Source: Whitmania pigra
Lineage: Eukaryota; Annelida; Clitellata; Hirudinida; Haemopidae
DNA length: 64,000 bases
Direction of reading: 5' to 3'
Assembly: GCA_021613335.1 (NCBI GenBank)
Contig: JAJTWR010000365.1
Span: 3,042,501-3,106,500, forward strand
Below are positions 21,981 to 58,100 of this stretch, one piece after another (positions within the stretch are counted from its first letter, which is position 1; every line of letters starts with the position of its first letter). Made by a program: the position numbers and the translations under genes. Under the pieces are notes generated by a model. The model had not been told where the DNA came from. It saw nothing but the letters and a program-made list of their open reading frames with translations, and did no database searches.

Positions 21981-21987
21981 CTAAGGC

Positions 21988-22915
<928 letters not shown>

Positions 22916-29800: not shown

Positions 29801-32800
29801 TGAGCTAAATTAAATAATAATTTCTTTTATAAAATGAAATCTCGCAAACATTTAAATAATAATGAGAAAAATATTATTCAATCCCAACTTTAAAAATATT
29901 ATTCAATTCACTTTAAAAATACTTTAAAATGTCCAAAACATTTGCACGGCCGAAGCATGGTAGTTTGATTTTTATTGTACTCCTTGACATCCAATTTAAG
30001 GATTTAGGTTGATTTATATAAGTATTTATTTTATTTTCTTTGAAATGCTTCACAAATAAATTTATTAAAATTACTACAAATAATAATTATTTATCATTTA
30101 TTCAAATTAGCATTTGTTAATATTCCAAAAGGAAATTCAAAAGTGATTAGCCGCAATAGCGTAAATCTTATGCAATCACCTCATGATCAACATTTAAAAA
30201 AAAAACAATTTTTATGCAATAAATTCTTGCAGGTAATTTATTCATCCGTTGAAAGATTTATAATTGTCTGAAAATCTGCCTTCGATCGAAACATAATTTG
30301 ATCACTTTGTTCTTGTTGCTTATTTGTTTTTTATTTTTTACGAATAATTGTTTTTTAAATTTATTTCAAATTAAATACTGATAATATATGATAAATAAAT
30401 TAAAATACTGATTTGAAAGGTTTTTAAAATATTTTTTAAAATAACTATACAACGATTTATTTTCATTTTTGATTATTTGATATTTTTAAACCATTAGTTT
30501 AACATTAATTCATTAAATATCCACGAAAGTCTTAAATACTCTCAACTCCTCACGTCTCTCCATACATAAACCATCGTAATAATAATAATAAAAAAAAAAT
30601 TTAGTTTTAGTTTTTAACGAGTAATAAGTTAACGTCCAACGCAGGTGAGCGTGTATATGAGAGTGATATTTCTGAAGATCGGAGAGATAGACACGATGAA
30701 GGAGAATTTCATGGCAGATGCTTTCATCCAGGCGAGATGGAGAGAACCTGCACTTGATGGACTCCAGAGCCAGGTAAATGTCAGTGACCCGGTAATTGAA
30801 CTCAATTGATCTGTTTTAATTTCAATCATTTAATCATTTCAATCACTTGAAAGTTTAGATGAAGCTTTGTGACGTGTTATTGAAATGGGTTTGAGTTACA
30901 ATCGAATTTAGGGAAAATAATATTATGTTGTTTTTGTAATCAAAAATATGAATAAAGAAATTTAAATTGTGATACCTACAGGACTATGGGATGTACCTCA
31001 GAAATTTGAAATGAGATTATAACCACAATGTTAAAATCAAACTTAATTGATAACAAATTCGGAATTATTAAATTATTAAATATTTAGGGAATGTTACTTT
31101 TAATTTGTTTATTTGTTTTATTTGCAGTATTTTTATTAAATAATAATTCGTTTAAATATCTGGGACAATAAAATTTTGTGATTAGGAAAGTGTTGATGTT
31201 TGTAACAGGTGTTGCTTCATAAATCATTTTTATGAGGTCGATCGGCGATAACCTTTTAAATAGTAGTAGTAGTAGTAATAATGATAATAATAATATGAAT
31301 AATAGCAATAATAATAGTAATACTACTACTACTAATAATAATAACAATAACATAATATTAATAGCATTAATAATAATGTGCAGCTTCTCAGTGCCCAGAG
31401 TATGGAGGACGTAGAATGGGACAAGTACTGGAATCCCAAGTTGTACGTTGAAAATAATTTGGGGGAACCCAAGGAAACCATTTGGCAGACTGTCAGTTAC
31501 GGATTGAAAGGTGAAGCCACAGTGTATGAAAGGAGAAGGATTAAGGGATGCTTCTTGGAGAACCTGGAACTTGATGATTTTCCGTTCGATACACAGGTAT
31601 ATACGTGTGAGTGTGTATGTATGTATGTGTATGTATGTATGTATGTAGGTATGTATGTATGTATGTATGTATGTATGTATGTATGTATGTATGTATGTAT
31701 GTATGTATGTATGTATGTATGTATGTATGTATGTATGTATGTATGTATGTATGTATGTATGTATGTATGTATGTATGTATGTAGTATGTATGTATGTATG
31801 TATGTATGTATGTATGTATGTATGTATGTATGTATGTATGTATGTATGTATGTATGTATGTATGTAGTATGTATGTATGTATGTATGTATGTATGTATGT
31901 ATGTATGTATGTATGTATGTATGTATGTATGTATGTGTTAGTGTGTGAGTTATTTAAAAGTAAAATATATTTCTAACTGTGTTTTCAAATGAGTAATTTT
32001 CGATTATTTTTGAATTAACGCGAAGATTCCTGGTGTTAGAAATAACAGGGGAAAACACAACATAGCAAAGCACTTTATGTCTTGCGCGAACATGTGATGC
32101 TGTAGTGTTGTGATGTTGTGAACTAAAAAAACAAGCCATTTTAAAACTTGGAGAAAATCAAAGATCCAGTTCACACCTGACAACATATTTTAAGATTAAG
32201 TTTCGGTGAAATAATTAATAATTTAAGTGATGAATATTCATTCGTTTTTATAAATTGTTTTTGCACATTGTCTTTCTGTCTTCGGCATTATTTAGGCATC
32301 TCCGATTCTAAACATATATGGTGCCATATAAATTAACTATTATTATATATTTTTAAAGTATTAATTGTGGTTAATTATTATTAAATTACTACTACTAATA
32401 AATAAATTAAAATGCAAATTAATTAAATATACTTAAAATGTTTTTAAGAAATATAAAAAAATAAAATATTACTTCTCTTTGGATTGAATGGATTTATAAA
32501 AAAATTTCTGGCGTCGCTAAAAGTACCAAGACATTTTGACTTTATTCGAGATATAAATAAATAAATAAATAAATAAATAAATCCACCTGATGGAGGTGCT
32601 GATGACGGATGGAATTGCAAGTTCATAACAATCTCATTTCATTGAACTGAAAAGTGGTGATGGACTATTTTGTAAATTGTTTTTGTTTAAAGTATAAATA
32701 GATTAAAGATATAATTATAGTTACAAATTGTTTATCAACGAATAACATTAAAACTGGTATACTAGCAATTTTAAATTTTAACTAGGCTGCCTTTGTAAAC

Positions 32801-37396: not shown

Positions 37397-38655
37397 GTTC
37401 CAGGTAGAGCTGGGTTCAAGTAAGTAAGTACTTAAGTACTTAAGTAAATTTTGTACTTATTACTTACTTAAGTAATTTTTGGACGACTTGAAAATTATAA
37501 GTAATATTGCCAGATGATTACAATGCAGATTTTGTTGACATGGTGAGTGATACTATTTCAAAAGTCGGAGCAATTGTCAAGCTGTTCATAAAGAACCCCC
37601 GAAAAATGACTGCTTGCAAAAGAACTGTGAAAAGGAATTGGGAAAACACTTTCTCTGCTCTTGGACATCAAAACTAACTAGATGGAACTCATTGCTTAAG
37701 ATTGCTCAAACGATTCTTGGAAGCCAGGACACCCATTGACAATACATTGATAGAGCTCAATCTAGGATCAAAATGCTTGACAGAGGATGAGGTTGCAGTT
37801 GTGAAAGACTTGGCAGAAAGTCTAGAAATAATTGAGGTTGGTGCAACCGCTCTTTGTAGACGTGACGTCACAATTTCAAAGAGTGAAAAGATTTTTGAGT
37901 ATGTTCTCAAAAGCTGACAGAAGAAACAGAAGCTATTTCACAGGAATTATTGACAGCTGTCAATGACAGAACTGAATCAAGGAGAAATAAAGACATTTGT
38001 GGCCTTGTGAGATATATAGAGGCTCCAGACAGTTATGAGCATGTGGTCGAGTTTTCACTCTTAGGTTATCCAAAGAAACGAGAGCCTGCCGAATTGGCAA
38101 TAAATGTTCTTTCACGGCCTTTTCCCTATGGTTCTATTAATGAGAGTGCTGAAAATTTTAAACATAACATAACATCACTAAGGAACCCCTATGAAAAAGT
38201 CCAAAGTAGAAGAGCTCAATGACATTTTATGCCAGCCAGAAGATCAACATTTGGATTGTGCTCAAGAAAATATCTTAACACACATTAAGAAAGAAATGAA
38301 ATTTTACGAAGCAACAAAGGAATGTCCCAAAATCTTGAAAAGCTTGAAGTCTTGTCTAAACTCACTTCCACCCTCCTCTGTTGAAGCAGAAAGGTGTTTT
38401 AATGCTGCTGGACTGTTTATTTTAAAGTTGAGGTCATCGTTAAGTGATGAGACGATTGATTCTTTATGCTTTGCATTATCAAATAATTTTTCTTTATAGA
38501 TGAGTTATAAATAAGGCAATTAAAATTTGGTATATTGTCTCTAGCTACTTTTAAAAAATTACTTGAATTACTTAATTGCTTAAGTCATTTTTTAAAAATT
38601 ACTTGTTACTTAAATATTTTTTTTAAGCTTGCTTGAACCCAGCACTAGTTCCAGG
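37397..38655 (+). mobile_element. hAT-family DNA transposon, decayed, with intact 8-bp target-site duplication
   Basis: The element spans 37405-38647 and is flanked by a perfect 8-bp duplication GTTCCAGG (37397-37404 and 38648-38655), the size expected for hAT insertions. Terminal inverted repeats read TAGAGCTGGGTTCAAG on the left and TAGTGCTGGGTTCAAG on the right strand. Subterminal DNA holds multiple ACTTAAGT-type motifs. Inside are broken transposase pieces (37702-37917, 37950-38222 and 38191-38499). The last contains the C-terminal hAT dimerisation signature SSVEAERCFNAAG followed by KLRSSLSDETIDSL. The N-terminal DNA-binding and most of the catalytic domain are missing, so the copy cannot move on its own. 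Confidence 0.9.
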
Positions 38656-41779: not shown

Positions 41780-41829
<50 letters not shown>

Positions 41830-41909
41830 TTATTATTATTATTATTATTATTTATTATTATTATTATTATTATTATATTATTATTATTATTATATTATTA
41901 TTATTATTA

Positions 41910-42007
<98 letters not shown>

Positions 42008-42107
42008 TATTATTATTATGTATTATTATTATTATTTATTATTATTATTCTTATTATTATTATTATTATTATATTATTATTATTTATTATTATTATTATT
42101 ATTATTC

Positions 42108-42185
<78 letters not shown>

Positions 42186-45100
42186 GTTATTATTATTCTT
42201 ATTATTATTATGTTATTATTCTGTTCAAATGTTTTGTTCACTTGCACTTTCAAACATCTTCTAAGCTCACGATTATTATTAACTCTTTGCTCTAACTGAT
42301 AGTAATATTATGTTTGCATTTGGCAAACGCAATTGCGTAAAATGTTTTTATATACATATAAAATAATATATCCTCCCAGATGTAATTGATAAAATTGTTT
42401 TCTGAGATTACTTATATGGAGTTTGCATTAGGAGGCTCTAATTTAACTTGAGTTAAAACTCCATTTAGATTAAATTGTATCGATGAAAATGTAATAATTT
42501 GACATTGAAAAAAAGAGAATTGTTAATTTAAAATTTAATTTAATGTGTTACATACCGATTTAGGTTGGAACCTCTTCTGAACAGAATACAAGAAGACAAA
42601 ACAGTGGTTGTGTGCCCCCTCATTGACCTCTTATGCACCCAAACTTTGAGGTTTTCTAGAAATGGCGGTGGAAGTGCAGGAGGATTTGATTGGAGTTTGT
42701 CTTTCGATTGGATTCCAATACAAGCGAAAGAAATGATGAGAAGGAAAAATGAAACTTTTCCAATAAAGTTTGAAACTTTAACTTAATTGCATTAGGAGGC
42801 TCTAATCTGCATCTAATATCGTAATTTAAAGTTAATGAAAAAATTAAAACAGAATAATTGAATCTTTTTAAAAATATGCAAATTTAATAAAAACATAAAG
42901 AGCCTTGTATTAAGGACATGCCATGAACTTGGTTAAACCATTAACCTTCCGAAGGTCACCAGCCATGGCAGGTGGTCTGTTTGCAGTGGATCGGCAGTTC
43001 TTCTTCAGACTGGGTGGCTACGACATTGGCATGCATATCTGGGGAGGTGAGAACACTGAAATGTCGCTCAGGGTAAGGGGTACTTTTATTCTGCAGTAGC
43101 CTTTGTTAAATTCGGCACCCCGTCATAATAGCCCGGCGACAAAATAGCCCCGTCAAAATAGCACCATCAAAACATAAAGCTCATTTCATTTAATCAAATT
43201 TGAAATAAGTTATAGGTTAATGTATCAACTCTTATAAATATTTTTTTTAAAGATACATTGACGGGGATGGTTTGACGGGGCTATTTTGTCGCTGGGCTAT
43301 TTTGACGGGCCACCGTTAAATTCATGTTAAGTTCTGTTGATGTATTTCTTTATTTAACAATTTTAGTGCAGTGATATTTGATAAACATTGTTTATCTCCT
43401 TTTAAGCATTTTGCTATAGAAATTAAAAAGTGTTATGAAAATAATATGTGCTGTTTTATAATTGCTATTACTATTAATATATTATTAACTTAGCAACTGC
43501 ATTTAAACACAATAATATAATTATAATTTATTCCGTGTGGAAACGGATGGAACTTGTTACAGCAATTTATGATTTAAAAAGTACTTTAATAATTTTATTT
43601 TGCAAGGAATTCAAATTGTGTTAAAATATGTTTTGTTTTTAAGACTTGGATGTGTGGTGGATCGTTGGAGTTCATTCCGTGCTCCAGAGTTGGTCACCTT
43701 TACCGATCTGCCTTTCCATATTCCACTGACAGCAAGTTATCAATTCCACTTAACAATTTACTTTTAAATATTATTAATGAGTATGATATTAAACTACATT
43801 TACTTTAATTTAATTTAATGTTTGCTCATAAATTATTATAATTATATTAAACAAAATTATTTCTGATCATGTTTGGAATTAATTTCATTTCAGCTGTTCA
43901 AATTTCTTATTTAATAGATAACAATTTACGTTCAAATTTCTTATTTAACAGATAAAAATTGGTACATCAATCCAAAAAGGGTGGCTGAGGTTTGGCTGGA
44001 TGAATACAAAAGAATATTTTATCTTCATAGACCGGAACTCAAAGTTAACTAATAACCATTTACTTAATTATTAAACAGCACAGTATTTTTGAATTGTAAT
44101 CCTAGAAAAAATATATTAAAGAATATTCATTAAAATTTCAGATTCTTGATGCTGGAAACCTGAGCGAGAGAATAGAACTGCGAAATAAACTAAAATGCAA
44201 GTCATTCAAATGGTATTTGGACAACGTGTTTCCTGAACTTTTTGTTCCTGATGAAAATGTTCGTGCTTACGGAAGTGTCAGTAATCCATTGTTACATGCA
44301 TTATTACATTATTGCTTTATTCCACTTAAGTAACTTTAATTATTTTAATAATTAACTATAATTTTCTTAATATTGTTAAACTTTTAATATTAATATCTCA
44401 TTTCTTCTCCAAAAAACCTAAAATTCTGTAAATGCAAGGTTTATATTTATCTTCTAAAAAAGAACAATTAATAATTTGAAAGATTTGTTTAAATGGCTGT
44501 ACAAAAATTTAAGTACAAAGATTGAGCTTAATAATTATTAAACAAAATAGATCTCAAAGCACATCTCAACTACCCAAATGATGAAGAGCAATTACAAGCT
44601 TTAAGTTAAACAATTTTCTCATTGAATTAGTGAACAAGAACAATTACTAAATACTATTAAATTAAATATTTATTAAATCAAGATAAAAGTAATATTTAAT
44701 ATAAATTTACAGATTTGCCTTCGATTTGGAAACAAATGTTGGGATTCTCTAGGAAAAGACTCGGGTTATTCCTCGTACACAATTAGTCTTTTTGATGACC
44801 AACAGGGCACCAGTCTTAATCAGGTCTGCATGGAATCACAAATAAATTCAAACAATTGAAGTCATCATGGGCTAATTAGAAGCAAATAAATTAATAGTAC
44901 AATTTATAATTAATTAATTAAAAACAAATATTACAATTTAAGTATTTATTAGTCAAGCTAAATGTAACATTTGATTGAGCACGACTAATTAATCTAAAAA
45001 AGATAACTTTTTGTGACAAATAAAATTTCATAAACATTATTTGAATCAATCAATTAATTACTAATATTAATTAACCAATTACTTATGTAATTATGTTAAA

Positions 45101-46445: not shown

Positions 46446-48010
46446 TTATTTGTCATTGATTTGTCCTACTGAAATGTAATAGCAACATTTATTCGACATT
46501 TGTTAGCATCTAATATTTACTAAAATTCTTTAAACAGTTATTTGAATTAATTCATTTTAACGGATAACATCTTGAATAGTTTATTTTATGTTAATGTTCA
46601 TTTTATTCAAAAATTGTTATGATTTTTTATAATTTAATGCTAAATTTTTAATTCCTTTATCATCGTCGTCATCGCTATCAGTGGAATATGATGCAGATTT
46701 GTTTGAACCAAACAAAGAAATAAATTTAACGCAAGAATGCGTTAAAATACATCGGTGCCAACAACTCTAAATTATTTAATTAAATAAATTAATTAATAAA
46801 TAAATTATTTGTTAAATAATTTATCAACAATGGAGATGTCGCCAGATCTTCAATGCCTGGCAAAGCGACTGAAATAACAAATAGCTATTTAATGGCATTT
46901 AAATATCTTTTAATTTAACGTTACAAATTTAAAAATTGTACTAAAAAATTAACCTGTTAGCCCGACTATATTACCTGCAAATGTAATTTTCATGGAAAAA
47001 ATAAAAAAACGAAGTATTTTAAACCTAATAACATTTGAATTAAAAAAAGATTTATTGAAAAAATTAATAAATAATTGATTTTAAAAATTAACATTGGTCC
47101 AAGTCCTGAGTTCAGCAATCCTGAAATCATTTAATTCAAATTATAAAAATTAAAAACGTAAATAAGCAACAATAGTAATTACTTATTCATAAACGTATAC
47201 TTAGTTATAAAAATTTCAGATGTAACCATTGAAGTAATTATAAAATTTCTATAAGTTCCTAAAAGCTTTTTGATCATAGTCACCGGCTACAAACAGAAAG
47301 TACGGGAATACAAGTATATATTTTACATTGTATAATATAATTTGTGTAATATGGTGGTAATTCATGAATTCCACAATTGAAATAAAATATTTTTATTATT
47401 GCCATTATTATTTATAAATTTTGTTGAATAATAATAATAAATATTATTAAGATATAATTTTTAAAAAAACCTCCTGTTAAGTCTTCAAATGGAGGTACTG
47501 AAAAAAAAGATCACTTAAGTACTATGTGGCAAGTAATTCAATCTCGAAAATCAAGTTTCATCAACTTTATTCACTGATATTTAATTTATCAATTGTAGCT
47601 TCAATTCTTAGATTAAACAGTTTGAATTTCTAAATTAAATATTGGATATAATTTTTAATAAAAAAATAACATTCTTACTTTTGTGCAAATTAGTAACACG
47701 AAAATAATTTAAACAATATTTGATTTAAATTACTTTAAATATAGTGATTAAAAAAGCACTCCTCATATTTTCATACCTTCCTTCAATGGTTCTTTTACTA
47801 AAATCACAAAATATTTTAGGCTTATTAGTTTGAAACGCTATCTTCAAAACATTCATGAAAATGGAAATAATACTTTTTAGTCAATTAAATTTTTAAATGC
47901 ACGTAATTCTTATATGCAAAATTTTAAAACGAGTGAAATGAAATATTTTCATGTTATTGGGATATAATTATAAAAACCTTCAGCATTTCCTGAGCCTTCA
48001 AGTGGAAGTA
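46446..48010 (-). pseudogene. old, decayed partial copy of the microexon gene
   Basis: Minus-strand microexons with good flanks remain at 47978-48010 (33 nt, (V)LPLEGSGNAE), 47471-47497 (27 nt, (V)PPFEDLTG) and 46954-46974 (21 nt, NIVGLT). All have the same phase as those of the intact copies. Other units are damaged: the unit at about 47091-47118 is 28 nt, the one near 47270-47295 has lost its GT donor, and the terminal acidic exon near 46650-46715 (SASYSTDSDDDDDKG) has AA where the acceptor AG should be. The signal-peptide exon and exons 2-4 are absent. A short downstream exon at 46446-46468 (acceptor ATTTCAG, then VGQINDK and TAA overlapping AATAAA) could be an alternative 3' end. It could also serve as extra 3' exons for the copy upstream of it. 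Confidence 0.6.
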
Positions 48011-48029
48011 CTGAAAAAAGGTTTTAAGT

Positions 48030-48192
48030 TCGAGGGCACCCCGTCATAACAGCTCCGACAAAACAGCCCCGTCAAAATAGCCCGGCGTCAAAATAGCCCA
48101 GGACGGAAAAATCCCGTCAAAATGGCCCCGTCGAAATAGCCCCGACAAAATAGCCCGGCGATAAAATAGCCCCGACAAAACAGCCCCATGAT
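48030..48192. repeat. array of GTCAAAATAGCCCC units (relative of the MITE at 43.1 kb)
   Basis: About nine imperfect 17-20-bp units (GTCAAAATAGCCCGGC, GACAAAACAGCCCC and similar) starting GGGCACCCCGTCATAACAGC. It lies at the junction between the decayed microexon copy and the recent tandem duplication. Confidence 0.75.
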
Positions 48193-48360
48193 AACTCCAT
48201 AAATTATTTAATAAATTTTATTCAATCAAATGTGCAACAGTCACTCCATTCATAAGACAATTGACAATAAATATACTGCTTAGAAAAATGAGTGTTTTTA
48301 TTTTTATCTTAATAATAAAATTGATATATTAAATAAATAAATGTAATTATCAGTAATTGT

Positions 48361-49495: not shown

Positions 49496-52400
49496 TTATT
49501 CTTTATGTTCGTCTTCGTCGTCACTGGAATTTGATGCAGAGTTATCTGAAGAAATAATGAAATGAATTTAACTCAGGAATGAAAGATGTTTTGGATTAAA
49601 AAAATCTAAATTATTTATTTAATTTATTATTGACTCTCACCGGTTATATGCTTGGCATGCTTATTGACTGAAATGTAAACAAGTGGCACATTAATATAAT
49701 TTAAATTAACTAATTTTTAGTTTAATGTGAAAGAAATTTGAAAATTGTAATTAAAACGTAACCTGTTACTCCTGCCAAGTTTCCGCCTACAAACGTAATT
49801 TTATTATACAACCAATTAATTTTAACGGAACGAATTATTTCAAATTTAACAAAATTAAAGTTTTAAATATTAAAAAAAAGATTAGTTTTTGGATTTAACA
49901 ATCAATATAAAGATGCCATCAGCCACCTTGTGATCCATGTTCAGATTTTATAGCTCCTAAAATATGTAATACAAATTATAACAAAAATATTAAAGACAAA
50001 TCATTAAAAAAAACAATAATAACTTATTCACAAACCTGTAGTTAGTGATAAAATTTCAGATGCATTTATTAGAAGATTAATTTATAAATTCTTAAAATCC
50101 TACTTTTTTGGATTCCAGCTTCCACAGAGGCTAAAAACAATTAGATACATTAAATTTAATATTTTAATGTGAAAGTTGAAAATCTTAAAATTGTAATTAA
50201 AAAGTAACCTGTTACTCTTGTCAAGTTGCGGCCTACAAACGTAATGTTTTTATGTTAAGACGTTACAAAGTAACATAAATAAAATTTTAAATTAGATTAT
50301 TTTATTTTAAAATTTTATTAAAATTCTAGATTGTTATTCTTTGGTTCGTTCGAGAACCTTCCTCTTTCCGATTATCGCTCATTTGTTGTTGTGGTTATCG
50401 CCGGTCGTTTTTGTTAAATCGGAAATTGTTGATTAGTCATACCGAAACTTTTTTTAATATATAATAATATAAGATTTAATATATCGTAGTATGGATTTAT
50501 TTGAAGCCAGTTTGAGTGTCGTTAGCGAAGATAAGAGGAACAAGGGTGAAGATAGTGCGTGACCGTATTTGAACAAAATGTTCAGATTTCGATCAAAGGA
50601 AACTCATATAAGTATGCATGCCTACTCTGCCAACAGAAAAAAAAAAACTATATGTTCAGCATATGAAGGTTCTTCATCTAACTTGAAGAAACACGTGAAA
50701 CGCATGCATCCAACATCCAGAAGTTAAGGAATATGGGATATCTGTTGCCAACGGTTGTCAAGCTTCATGAGAAACTGGTAGCCAAAATAGCATCTTCTAA
50801 TGCAGCAATGGTGGACGAGCTGAAAGCATCTCATTCATCTGATTCTGACAGTGTTGAAGACAGTTTCTTCAATTGCACAAGGTCAAGTGATATTCTGATG
50901 CAGTATCTTCAAGATCGATCAGATGACATGAACATTATTTATCCAGTTGAACGCTCTTCTGAACGCTATTGCAGCTGTTGAACGATTATTCAGCTATGCT
51001 GGTATGAACAGCCGAAGGACCATAATGAGTGACAAACTATTCGAGGACTTAGTTATGTTAAAAATTACCAAATGTGTGTGATTGTAATAAATAATAAAAA
51101 CACCAAAAGAATGCATTAGTTCAATTGTTATTACTTAGTGACTGTTAGTACTAGGAGTTAATACCATTAATTGTTTTAACGATAATAGAAACAATTCCTT
51201 TTAAATAATACGGAATGATGTATGATCACAATAATGGCAGCATCAAAGTTACTTGTAATTTTTACTTAAAAGTAACTTTTGGGTGCTGTAACTTTTCACT
51301 TTTACTTGAGTAACTTTTTGAGACAATACTCTTACTTATACTTAAGTAGCTTTTTGAGCTATTACTTTTACTTGTAACTAATTACCGAAATGAGGTAATT
51401 TTTACAACACTGTTAAAAAGTAACCTGTTACTCTTGTAAAGTTGCGGCCTACAAACGTAATGTTTTTATGTAAAAATATTAACCAATTAATTTTAACGGA
51501 ACGAATATCAATTTTGATACGAAAATACGAATTTTTCAAATTTAACAAAATTTAACTTTTAAGTATTAAAAGAAAAGATTAATATTTGGATTTAACAATC
51601 AATATAAAAATGCCATCAACCACATCTTGGTCCATGTACAGATTTTAATTCTCCTAAAAACATGTAATACAAATTATAAAAAATATTAAAGACAAATAAT
51701 TTAAAATAACCATTAAGAACTTATTCACAAACCTGTGGTTAGTTATAAAATTTCAGATGCATTTATTAGAATATTAATTTATAAATTCTTAAAATCTTAC
51801 TTTTTTGGATCCTAGCTTCCACAGAGGCTAAAAACAGTTAGTATGCGATAGCAAGTTTATATTTCAGTAGTATAATGTGTTCCAGGTATATTTATCATTT
51901 GATAAATAATACGTATTATATAACTTGTATATAGATGTGCATGTAAATAATTTTGTATTTCATGTCTATTTATATGTTGTATAATATGTAATGTACGGTT
52001 TATATAATAAGTTTGTAGTTCATGTAACATACGAGTAAAATGAAATATTTTCATGTTATCGATATTTAATCATGCATTACCTCCAGCATCTGGGATGTCT
52101 CCAAGTGTATGTACTGAAACAAAAACGTCTCTTAAGCTCTACGATGCAAGTAACTCAGATAGTAAATATTTTTAATAGCAACTTCAATAAAGACTTCAAA
52201 ATATTAATAATGAATTTTTCCTTTCGTGCAGTAGTTTATTTACTAACGGGAGAAAATTTAGACGATAATTGAGAATATTATCATATTAAATTTCTTTAAA
52301 TATGGTGATTAATATATCATATTTTGATACCTCCCTCCAAAAATTATTTCACTAAATCCATAAAATATTTTATGCTTATTAAGTTCAAACACTGTCTTCA

Positions 52401-53012
52401 AAACATTCATGAAAAGGGAAAGAAATCTTTTTAGGGTATTAAATCTTTAAATGCCAATTAATTAGTAAATGTCAAAATTTAAAACGTTTTTGCACTTTTC
52501 ATTATTCTTGAATATTGAATTTCACGATATTACCTGTATCGTTGAGCACATTCAAATTCAATTGAGCTGAAAATAATTAATATTAATTAGGTTCATTTGT
52601 AAATATCGCTTGACATCAATGGCAGATAGTCTTACGTTTCTTCTCTTCCAAGCCATGCTTCACTGAGAAATTTAAAATTCCACGTCAGAAATAAAAATAA
52701 CATGTAAATTAACTCAATCGCATCGAGCTGTTACACATTCTAAATGTAAAATAGATTTCCGTCCAACCTTTTCCGTCAAAATCCAGAAGTCCAGCTGAAA
52801 TAAATAATTACAAATTAAAGATATTCAAGTATGAATATGAAAATATGAATCCATAAATTGATTGGTAGAATTTGAAATTTTATTTCAAAATTAATTTAAA
52901 ACACGTAATATTTTAGAATATTTGAAATGGTTCAATTCACTTAACGAAATCCACCTGAGATGATGGAGTTGAGGAAAGCAGTCAGAAACAAAGCACTGAT
53001 GAGGAACTTCAT
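49496..53012 (-). CDS. secreted microexon gene, copy 1
   Basis: The signal-peptide exon 52955-53012 (MKFLISALFLTAFLNSIIS) is followed by microexons 52768-52794, 52636-52662, 52534-52566, 52081-52113, 51801-51827, 51624-51653, 51425-51448, 50209-50232, 50104-50130, 49927-49956, 49763-49786 and 49641-49667, then the terminal exon 49496-49545. Internal exons are 24, 27, 30 or 33 nt and all start with two bases and end with one base of a split codon, so each can be skipped in frame. Using all of them gives 146 residues: signal peptide, short units, two related cassettes (SVEARIQK..., SVEAGIQK...), two NxT glycosylation sites (NFT, NLT) and an acidic tail (NSASNSSDDEDEHKE). K-R pairs form across two junctions. 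The stop TAA overlaps an AATAAA. A TATA box sits about 50 bp upstream of the ATG. I recognise no homologue. The layout matches schistosome MEGs; function unknown. Confidence 0.75.
50253..51412 (+). mobile_element. dead hAT-type element inside microexon copy 1
   Basis: The right end reads, on the minus strand, CAGTGTTGTAAAAATTACCT, a typical hAT terminus. Subterminal DNA is full of AAGTAAC-type motifs. Inside are a start (MDLFEASLSVVSEDKRNKG, then a stop), a BED-type zinc finger fragment (YACLLCQQKK...LKKHVKRMH), a middle fragment (50733-50981) and a hAT dimerisation remnant (AVERLFSYAGMNSRRTIMSD). The left terminus is missing: similarity to the host intron stops near 50253. Both flanks carry TTAAAAAGTAACCTGTTACT with a complete 24-nt microexon, so the element sits between two copies of that unit. 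Confidence 0.75.
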
Positions 53013-53060
53013 TTTCGAGGTTGGTTGTTCAATTCTGAAACAAGTCGGTTGCAAGGCAGA

Positions 53061-53067
53061 TTTTATA
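53061..53067 (-). promoter_or_regulatory. TATA box of microexon gene copy 1
   Basis: TATAAAA on the minus strand, about 50 bp upstream of the ATG at 53012, leaving a 5'UTR of roughly 20-25 nt. Conserved at 58149-58155. Confidence 0.65.
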
Positions 53068-54584: not shown

Positions 54585-57500
54585 TTATTCTTTATGTTCG
54601 TCTTCGTCGTCACTGGAATTTGATGCAGAGTTATCTGAAGAAATAATGAAATGAATTTAACTCAGGAATGAAAGATGTTTTGGATTAAAAAAATCTAAAT
54701 TATTTATTTAATTTATTATTGACTCTCACCGGTTATATGCTTGGCATGCTTATTGACTGAAATGTAAACAAGTGGCACATTAATATAATTTAAATTAACT
54801 AATTTTTAGTTTAATGTGAAAGAAATTTGAAAATTGTAATTAAAACGTAACCTGTTACTCCTGCCAAGTTTCCGCCTACAAACGTAATTTTATTATACAA
54901 CCAATTAATTTTAACGGAACGAATTATTTCAAATTTAACAAAATTAAAGTTTTAAATATTAAAAAAAAGATTAGTTTTTGGATTTAACAATCAATATAAA
55001 GATGCCATCAGCCACCTTGTGATCCATGTTCAGATTTTATAGCTCCTAAAATATGTAATACAAATTATAACAAAAATATTAAAGACAAATCATTAAAAAA
55101 AACAATAATAACTTATTCACAAACCTGTAGTTAGTGATAAAATTTCAGATGCATTTATTAGAAGATTAATTTATAAATTCTTAAAATCCTACTTTTTTGG
55201 ATTCCAGCTTCCACAGAGGCTAAAAACAATTAGATACATTAAATTTAATATTTTAATGTGAAAGTTGAAAATCTTAAAATTGTAATTAAAAAGTAACCTG
55301 TTACTCTTGTCAAGTTGCGGCCTACAAACGTAATGTTTTTATGTTAAGACGTTACAAAGTAACATAAATAAAATTTTAAATTAGATTATTTTATTTTAAA
55401 ATTTTATTAAAATTCTAGATTGTTATTCTTTGGTTCGTTCGAGAACCTTCCTCTTTCCGATCATCGCTCATTTGTTGTTGTGGTTATCGCCGGTCGTTTT
55501 TGTTAAATCGGAAATTGTTGATTAGTCATACCGAAACTTTTTTTAATATATAATAATATAAGATTTAATATATCGTAGTATGGATTTATTTGAAGCCAGT
55601 TTGAGTGTCGTTAGCGAAGATAAGAGGAACAAGGGTGAAGATAGTGCGTGACCGTATTTGAACAAAATGTTCAGATTTCGATCAAAGGAAACTCATATAA
55701 GTATGCATGCCTACTCTGCCAACAGAAAAAAAAAACTATATGTTCAGCATATGAAGGTTCTTCATCTAACTTGAAGAAACACGTGAAACGCATGCATCCA
55801 ACATCCAGAAGTTAAGGAATATGGGATATCTGTTGCCAACGGTTGTCAAGCTTCATGAGAAACTGGTAGCCAAAATAGCATCTTCTAATGCAGCAATGGT
55901 GGACGAGCTGAAAGCATCTCATTCATCTGATTCTGACAGTGTTGAAGACAGTTTCTTCAATTGCACAAGGTCAAGTGATATTCTGATGCAGTATCTTCAA
56001 GATCGATCAGATGACATGAACATTATTTATCCAGTTGAACGCTCTTCTGAACGCTATTGCAGCTGTTGAACGATTATTCAGCTATGCTGGTATGAACAGC
56101 CGAAGGACCATAATGAGTGACAAACTATTCGAGGACTTAGTTATGTTAAAAATTACCAAATGTGTGTGATTGTAATAAATAATAAAAACACCAAAAGAAT
56201 GCATTAGTTCAATTGTTATTACTTAGTGACTGTTAGTACTAGGAGTTAATACCATTAATTGTTTTAACGATAATAGAAACAATTCCTTTTAAATAATACG
56301 GAATGATGTATGATCACAATAATGGCAGCATCAAAGTTACTTGTAATTTTTACTTAAAAGTAACTTTTGGGTGCTGTAACTTTTCACTTTTACTTGAGTA
56401 ACTTTTTGAGACAATACTCTTACTTATACTTAAGTAGCTTTTTGAGCTATTACTTTTACTTGTAACTAATTACCGAAATGAGGTAATTTTTACAACACTG
56501 TTAAAAAGTAACCTGTTACTCTTGTAAAGTTGCGGCCTACAAACGTAATGTTTTTATGTAAAAATATTAACCAATTAATTTTAACGGAACGAATATCAAT
56601 TTTGATACGAAAATACGAATTTTTCAAATTTAACAAAATTTAACTTTTAAGTATTAAAAGAAAAGATTAATATTTGGATTTAACAATCAATATAAAAATG
56701 CCATCAACCACATCTTGGTCCATGTACAGATTTTAATTCTCCTAAAAACATGTAATACAAATTATAAAAAATATTAAAGACAAATAATTTAAAATAACCA
56801 TTAAGAACTTATTCACAAACCTGTGGTTAGTTATAAAATTTCAGATGCATTTATTAGAATATTAATTTATAAATTCTTAAAATCTTACTTTTTTGGATCC
56901 TAGCTTCCACAGAGGCTAAAAACAGTTAGTATGCGATAGCAAGTTTATATTTCAGTAGTATAATGTGTTCCAGGTATATTTATCATTTGATAAATAATAC
57001 GTATTATATAACTTGTATATAGATGTGCATGTAAATAATTTTGTATTTCATGTCTATTTATATGTTGTATAATATGTAATGTACGGTTTATATAATAAGT
57101 TTGTAGTTCATGTAACATACGAGTAAAATGAAATATTTTCATGTTATCGATATTTAATCATGCATTACCTCCAGCATCTGGGATGTCTCCAAGTGTATGT
57201 ACTGAAACAAAAACGTCTCTTAAGCTCTACGATGCAAGTAACTCAGATAGTAAATATTTTTAATAGCAACTTCAATAAAGACTTCAAAATATTAATAATG
57301 AATTTTTCCTTTCGTGCAGTAGTTTATTTACTAACGGGAGAAAATTTAGACGATAATTGAGAATATTATCATATTAAATTTCTTTAAATATGGTGATTAA
57401 TATATCATATTTTGATACCTCCCTCCAAAAATTATTTCACTAAATCCATAAAATATTTTATGCTTATTAAGTTCAAACACTGTCTTCAAAACATTCATGA

Positions 57501-58100
57501 AAAGGGAAAGAAATCTTTTTAGGGTATTAAATCTTTAAATGCCAATTAATTAGTAAATGTCAAAATTTAAAACGTTTTTGCACTTTTCATTATTCTTGAA
57601 TATTGAATTTCACGATATTACCTGTATCGTTGAGCACATTCAAATTCAATTGAGCTGAAAATAATTAATATTAATTAGGTTCATTTGTAAATATCGCTTG
57701 ACATCAATGGCAGATAGTCTTACGTTTCTTCTCTTCCAAGCCATGCTTCACTGAGAAATTTAAAATTCCACGTCAGAAATAAAAATAACATGTAAATTAA
57801 CTCAATCGCATCGAGCTGTTACACATTCTAAATGTAAAATAGATTTCCGTCCAACCTTTTCCGTCAAAATCCAGAAGTCCAGCTGAAATAAATAATTACA
57901 AATTAAAGATATTCAAGTATGAATATGAAAATATGAATCCATAAATTGATTGGTAGAATTTGAAATTTTATTTCAAAATTAATTTAAAACACGTAATATT
58001 TTAGAATATTTGAAATGCTTCAATTCACTTAACGAAATCCACCTGAGATGATGGAGTTGAGGAAAGCAGTCAGAAACAAAGCACTGATGAGGAACTTCAT
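54585..58100 (-). CDS. secreted microexon gene, copy 2
   Basis: Nearly identical to copy 1. Exons are 58043-58100 (signal peptide), 57856-57882, 57724-57750, 57622-57654, 57169-57201, 56889-56915, 56712-56741, 56513-56536, 55298-55321, 55193-55219, 55016-55045, 54852-54875, 54730-54756 and 54585-54634. I saw no differences in the exons, splice sites or TATA box compared with copy 1, so the two genes should make the same proteins. The dead hAT element is present in the same intron, so the insertion predates the duplication. The 54.6-kb end is followed by copy 1's promoter side, giving a head-to-tail arrangement on the minus strand. Confidence 0.75.
55342..56500 (+). mobile_element. dead hAT-type element inside microexon copy 2
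   Basis: The same element as at 50253-51412, duplicated with the host gene. It differs by one A fewer in the poly-A run of the zinc-finger fragment and one substitution near 55462. The same stop codons break the transposase. Confidence 0.75.

Follow-up and report, generated by a model that had tools for sequence, protein, structure and literature searches.

The question raised by the locus treated here is whether a chain of minute predicted exons in the genome of the leech Whitmania pigra constitutes a real gene and, if so, how closely it corresponds to the micro-exon genes (MEGs) of schistosomes and tapeworms. The locus is located on the minus strand of a stretch of 64,000 nucleotides (nt) from contig JAJTWR010000365.1 (positions 3,042,501 to 3,106,500 of the forward strand), hereafter termed the window, within which coordinates are given. 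A first-pass annotation had described a signal exon, twelve symmetric microexons with AG/GT flanks and an acidic end exon whose stop codon overlaps AATAAA, and all of these elements are indeed present on the minus strand. With a probability of about three in four, we consider them to represent a real, tandemly duplicated leech micro-exon gene family for small secreted proteins, probably a MEG-like secreted family of convergent origin. As judged from sequence, the decisive evidence for a real gene is the gene family itself, which had not been seen in the first-pass annotation: copy B, copy C, the paralogs on C183 and C7, the duplication of an exon block and the repeated element between exons E8 and E8b all lay outside it.

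In the window, the gene under study (copy A, with exons E1 to E13 including E8b) is accompanied by two further copies:

54585..58100, minus strand: copy B, the second complete copy, the tandem unit being roughly 5,088 bp long
46580..48285, minus strand: copy C, a decayed third copy with an upstream piece, two E5-like exons, and E6-, E7- and E8-like as well as tail remnants

Alignment of copies A and B over about 3.9 kb yields 11 differences, one of them an end gap, and none is located in any of the 14 exons. E1 was looked for in copy C and not found. In the 178-Mb assembly, the signal exon occurs at 8 places, i.e., in copies A and B, at five positions on C183 (611, 634, 642, 935 and 1014 kb, the first three also termed m611, m634 and m642 below) and at one on C7, while partial copies without signal exon are additionally present on C183. 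The model for copy A comprises the following features, listed in the direction of the predicted transcript:

53034..53067, minus strand: TATAAAA (53067-53061) and initiator-like TTTCAGA (53040-53034), a putative promoter
52955..53012, minus strand: E1, signal-peptide-like exon of 58 nt, MKFLISALFLTAFLNSIIS plus the first base of the next codon, one of the 8 genome places
52768..52794, minus strand: E2, microexon of 27 nt, with 27 aligned nt and an open frame in all seven copies
52636..52662, minus strand: E3, microexon of 27 nt, length and open frame shared by all six aligned copies
52534..52566, minus strand: E4, microexon of 33 nt, length and open frame shared by all three aligned copies
52331..52351, minus strand: microexon-like remnant of 21 nt with an in-frame stop in copy A, open relatives being the second copy in 1014 and that in copy C
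52222..52242, minus strand: microexon-like remnant of 21 nt without donor in copy A, the donor being present in five paralogs (611, 618, 634, 935 and 1014)
52081..52113, minus strand: E5, microexon of 33 nt, length and open frame shared by five of the six aligned copies, m611 being truncated
51801..51827, minus strand: E6, microexon of 27 nt, repeated block copy 1
51624..51653, minus strand: E7, microexon of 30 nt with weak donor, repeated block copy 1
51425..51448, minus strand: E8, microexon of 24 nt, repeated block copy 1
50266..51412, strand unassigned: repeated element separating E8 from E8b, with approximate boundaries
50209..50232, minus strand: E8b, microexon of 24 nt, its surrounding 62 nt 97% identical to the E8 region
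50104..50130, minus strand: E9, microexon of 27 nt, copy 2 of E6
49927..49956, minus strand: E10, microexon of 30 nt, copy 2 of E7
49763..49786, minus strand: E11, microexon of 24 nt, copy 2 of E8
49641..49667, minus strand: E12, microexon of 27 nt
49496..49545, minus strand: E13, acidic terminal exon of 50 nt, its TAA within AATAAA (49,500-49,495), its 3' region with 8 genome matches

E1 contains the ATG and ends one base into a codon on the minus strand. The twelve internal exons measure, in order, 27, 27, 33, 33, 27, 30, 24, 24, 27, 30, 24 and 27 nt; each has AG/GT flanks, is a multiple of three and starts at codon position 2, and the joined chain from E1 to E13 is a single open frame of 441 nt corresponding to 146 amino acids (aa). 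At the place of E2, the donor is absent in m642, and C7, which is not part of the seven copies counted, retains only the acceptor and the first bases. Introns in copy A are 69-420 nt long with one exception of 1,192 nt, which contains the repeated element. The latter is presumably hAT-like; a 201-bp piece of it finds matches in all 40 scored candidates, out of 395 in the genome, and a Pfam search with its 99-aa open reading frame (ORF) gave no match.

The predicted protein starts with MKFLISALFLTAFLNSIISA, followed by a mature chain of 126 residues, the signal peptide having been read from the N-terminus and the cleavage after residue 20 placed by eye. The product is probably secreted. Its mature chain has an isoelectric point (pI) of 8.1, a grand average of hydropathy (GRAVY) of -0.84, a single cysteine and the tail SSDDEDEHKE, and four N-glycosylation-type sites are found in the full chain. 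Neither Pfam nor PDB yielded a match for the product at E≤1. The same holds true for a protein search with a 138-aa form and with a four-row family alignment, a method that requires shared words of five residues and similar length; the database searched does include a named leech protein. The view taken in the first-pass annotation that the product belongs to no recognised family thus agrees with the search of the assembled product against known proteins, which gave no relative at E≤1.

Exons this short invite the suspicion that AT-rich introns have produced the chain by chance. When bare candidates, defined by AG/GT, a length of 24, 27, 30 or 33 nt and an open frame, were counted over a 3.9-kb stretch, 29 were present in the gene stretch vs. 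a mean of 14.8 (maximum 28) in 60 first-order Markov sequences and a mean of 18.8 (maximum 30) in 26 stretches taken from elsewhere in the window. The combination of AG/GT, divisibility by three and open frame is by itself near chance and weak evidence. A different picture is obtained once donor and acceptor scores of at least 0 are demanded (generic weight tables). Ten candidates then remain in the gene stretch vs. means of 0.23 (maximum 2) in the Markov sequences, 0.54 (maximum 4) in the other window stretches and 0.46 (maximum 3) in a wider control of 150 overlapping windows from seven other genome stretches. These ten are E2-E6, E8, E8b, E9, E11 and E12 and none besides, the donor of E7 and the acceptor of E10 scoring below zero, and not a single splice-filtered candidate was found for eight lengths not divisible by three. 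Openness in phase 1 carries less weight, as exons of this size can frequently be read through in additional frames: entry in phase 0 likewise leaves 5 gene-strand candidates open and entry in phase 2 leaves 8, the numbers for the other strand being 2, 2 and 0. The gene model gains independent support from the paralogs, in which E1 and the splice sites are conserved. On the strength of this conservation and of the splice-score excess, which selects predicted exons only, the chance reading was rejected and its probability is practically negligible.

To quantify conservation, paralogs were aligned piecewise and changes were counted by parsimony on trees set by hand, with introns matched for base and block providing the expectation. 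E1 experienced 11 changes where base-matched introns predict 36.0, and splice sites 14 instead of 26.3 (P=0.004); expressed per site, changes amount to 0.19 in E1 and 0.41 in mature exons. With C7 left out, the 178 sites of E1-E5 contain no indel located wholly inside them, compared to 28 indels for 796 sites in introns, and one indel crosses the edge of E5 in the truncated 611. The TATAAAA element is retained in six of seven aligned upstream regions, that of C7 being altered. Using a mutation spectrum derived from introns and again without C7, 42 nonsynonymous and 6 synonymous changes were counted in E2-E5, where 72.2% nonsynonymous changes are expected (one-sided P=0.0098). In pairwise counts, nonsynonymous divergence (dN) exceeded synonymous divergence (dS) for all 15 pairs of paralogs and for four of the five pairs of repeated cassettes, but these pairs are non-independent and in many cases contain almost no synonymous changes. 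For this small sample of related paralogs, signal and splice sites thus appear to be kept while mature residues would change freely or under mild diversifying selection. An outright acceleration of the mature exons, suggested by a raw divergence of 0.241 vs. 0.157 for introns, was rejected: the raw values include redundant and overlapping matches and disregard the higher G+C content of the exons, and the excess vanishes after base-matched parsimony.

Several observations weigh against a functional gene family. Mature exons as a whole show 70 changes with 67.2 expected (P=0.37). Within E2-E5, the nonsynonymous lean is significant for E3 only and not for E2, E4 and E5, and in E6-E8 a ratio of 20.2 nonsynonymous to 4.8 synonymous changes is unremarkable (P=0.32; m634, m642 and copy C, whose E7-like stretch is not a multiple of three, were left out of the counts for this block). 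No stops arose, yet neutrality fits this as well (P=0.19 for E2-E5 and P=0.30 for E6-E8). Among 20 gaps in mature exons in the raw alignments, only 7 are multiples of three, and the raw gap rate resembles that of introns (20/1108 vs. 163/7439 sites). In addition, a clean reading from E1 to the stop codon exists in copies A and B only, and every paralog examined is incomplete or damaged. E6 has 26 nt in 618 and 935; the E7-like stretch has 29 nt in 634, 642 and 1014 and 28 nt in copy C; the E4 acceptor is absent in 634, where a weak in-frame acceptor follows 9 nt further; E1 is absent in 618, 611 is truncated and the tail of 935 is shifted. A terminal exon was looked for in 1014 and not found, and in C7 BLAST positions a gap of a single base within E1 or immediately ahead of it.

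Damage to every paralog, mature exons diverging at the nucleotide level just as introns do, gaps mostly not divisible by three and a repeated element inside the gene are what would be expected of a decaying, non-functional repeat family, the copies in the window looking intact because they are young. On the other hand, E1 and the splice sites are constrained, E1-E5 are free of internal indels, E2-E5 lean toward nonsynonymous changes and the TATA box has been retained, all of which argues against such a family and renders it unlikely in our judgment.

Under the preferred reading of a functional micro-exon gene family, the architecture of the mature part deserves closer inspection. The block E6-E7-E8 is duplicated as E9-E10-E11, with 92% and 78% identity over its two main parts, and a third occurrence of E8 is represented by E8b on the far side of the repeated element. 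Furthermore, E5-like cassettes are found twice each in 618, 935 and copy C. Turnover of the predicted cassettes, which differ between copies, is visible because of these duplications within genes and because one 21-nt cassette has a donor in five paralogs and none in copy A, where another carries an in-frame stop. In the assembly, the visible variation distinguishes gene copies and repeated exons from one another; it does not concern splice forms.

This bears on whether the family is MEG-like also in mechanism, that is, whether the twelve cassettes are alternatively skipped such that a single worm produces many isoforms per gene. All twelve are symmetric with a common codon position of entry, E7 and E10 have weak sites, and alternative splicing of this kind has been described for schistosome MEGs (PMC4350168). 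Of the 4,096 possible exon subsets, 3,968 give open and mutually distinct sequences, a number that measures capacity and is no result. Exon duplication alone would also yield symmetry, however, and the variation seen lies between gene copies, so that we rate such skipping slightly below an even chance.

A second view of the mature chain is that of a peptide precursor, be it neuropeptide, antimicrobial or hormone-like, that is cut at dibasic sites. The signal-peptide-like start and two lysine-arginine (KR) pairs at repeated positions, straddling the splice junctions E6/E7 and E9/E10, would be in line with this. By reading, the E6-like exon of paralog 634 gives no KR, and this absence of the site led us to down-weight a dibasic precursor; moreover, glycine precedes neither KR, and the fast divergence is unlike that of neuropeptides, which are not typically fast-diverging. 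Such a precursor therefore appears improbable.

Returning to the micro-exon gene family, we propose that the TATA promoter would drive transcription and that the conserved signal-peptide exon would export the product, the mature chain being read from a string of symmetric cassettes of 8-11 codons with the acidic tail last. As all cassettes begin and end at the same codon position, they could be duplicated, lost or skipped in frame. Expression would be expected in gland or epidermis, diversification may be driven by targets outside the body, be it host, prey or microbe, and alternative splicing could possibly mix the cassettes. The most far-reaching version is an independent leech micro-exon system of gland-secreted proteins, whose interchangeable 8-11-residue cassettes would be shuffled both by splicing and in the genome, the latter through duplication, loss and a mobile element that separates two versions of the same cassette. 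A single gene could then yield variants running into the thousands where the leech meets its host or prey; this version is put forward tentatively, with clearly less than even odds.

The copy on C7 constitutes a special case. At about 203.5-208.1 kb of C7, the upstream region and signal exon precede duplicated exons for an F5/8 type C (lectin-like) domain, one piece of which is matched by Pfam with E=3.4e-07; fragments between these exons are presumably copia-like. This arrangement is a candidate for a promoter and signal exon that have possibly been captured.

Other features were recorded in the vicinity and elsewhere in the genome. A short frame, part of the tandem unit, is located downstream of each gene copy (about 49190-48950 and 54280-54040, minus strand) and resembles, as we assume, a hAT-type transposon protein. 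A dispersed 14-bp repeat, CCCCGTCAAAATAG, occurs in both orientations at 43118-43309 and 48039-48187, one array adjoining copy C. On the plus strand, a hAT family C-terminal dimerisation region is found at 38182-38499 (Pfam E=9.5e-05), and an open frame at 31351-31941, the start of which we take to read like a Cys-loop receptor, runs into a TGTA repeat and has no Pfam match over the whole ORF. Long simple-repeat arrays are present at 273-704, 21987-22915, 31614-31936 and 41780-42220, with periods of 4, 6, 4 and 3 nt, respectively. Genome-wide, four COX1-family matches on C115, C49, C360 and C47 lie in frames of 542-715 aa that are stop-free under the bacterial code, and these look like bacterial contigs in the assembly.

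The erythrocruorin-linker (annelid haemoglobin-linker) family PF16915, which by its name we take to be an annelid family, has five matches in the genome, four of them over the cut-off, and antistasin (PF02822) has 58. Neither occurs in 14 control genomes, of which those named are bacteria or archaea, so that no other animal is excluded by this comparison. One antistasin stretch is matched best by a protein without a name (97% identity), and Hirudo verbana antistasin-like factor A, which covers 15% of the query at 83% identity, is the sole named match. Hirudin has one match in the genome, covering positions 1-19 of 64, and the corresponding frame presumably resembles the hirudin signal peptide. 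By their content, these matches speak for an annelid and most probably a leech. Antistasin and the hirudin superfamily have cysteine-rich domains. The family described here resembles these leech salivary families in that it stems from probably the same kind of animal and consists of small secreted proteins encoded by multiple genes, and differs from them by a single cysteine in the mature chain and the absence of a Pfam domain.

According to PMC7653826, MEGs are structurally defined by at least seven exons, at least half of which are shorter than 70 nt and divisible by three, with a run of at least four such exons. The predicted structure, with 14 exons and 12 micro-exons in one run, agrees with this published definition. 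A signal peptide, a further MEG trait, was read by eye from the N-terminus and is conserved across copies; the designation of a secreted-type, MEG-like gene in the first-pass annotation is therefore borne out for the predicted structure. Like the MEGs of schistosomes and tapeworms, the gene has a signal peptide, most of its coding sequence in small symmetric exons and mobile elements in or near the genes (PMC4350168). In MEGs, the mature part also diverges faster than the signal part, with high dN/dS, and the present family may share this tendency, given 0.19 vs. 0.41 changes per site and a nonsynonymous lean that reaches significance in E2-E5 and not in E6-E8. The nearest parallel in behavior is the tandem MEG cluster of H. 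microstoma, in which ten MEGs share one common N-terminal motif and have undergone tandem expansion (PMC7653826). On the other hand, MEGs appear to be restricted to platyhelminths according to a 2015 paper (PMC4350168), and the host here is an annelid; cassettes have 24-33 nt compared to mostly 15 bp in S. mansoni (PMC10526429), and introns are short (69-420 nt bar the one of 1,192 nt). Protein, Pfam and PDB searches revealed no sequence kinship with a MEG family at E≤1, a statement that involves no direct comparison with a MEG protein. Among the literature matches listed, which cover neither subscription papers nor preprints, no annelid or leech MEGs were found.

Bicycle genes from aphids, phylloxerids and coccids likewise show numerous small internal exons whose first base is codon position 2, N-terminal signal sequences in many cases and fast divergence (PMC9168663). 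When the coefficients of the structural classifier for these genes (PMC9168663) were evaluated manually, taking the mean length of the internal exons as input, copy A reached 0.99994 with a cut-off of 0.72, a score that does not show homology because the classifier considers structure only and was made for aphids and their relatives. In contrast to bicycle genes, the leech protein has a single cysteine and no CYC motif, which is also missing from some bicycle homologs (PMC9168663), and its gene resides in an annelid genome and not in that of an aphid, phylloxerid or coccid.

If our reading is true, variation of secreted proteins by tiny interchangeable exons, an architecture known above all from parasitic flatworms and gall aphids, may have originated once more in a further animal lineage. 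An annelid living on hosts or prey would then supply a third case without sequence relationship to the other two, and symmetric mini-exons would be a repeatable route providing frame-safe cassettes for fast-evolving secreted proteins. As MEG-type genes are easily missed by gene finders (PMC7653826), leech secretions may hold an uncatalogued class of proteins. The gene family would thus work like MEGs and bicycle genes and is not filed as a member of either because both taxon and sequence fail, and its likeness to the two is likely the outcome of convergence.

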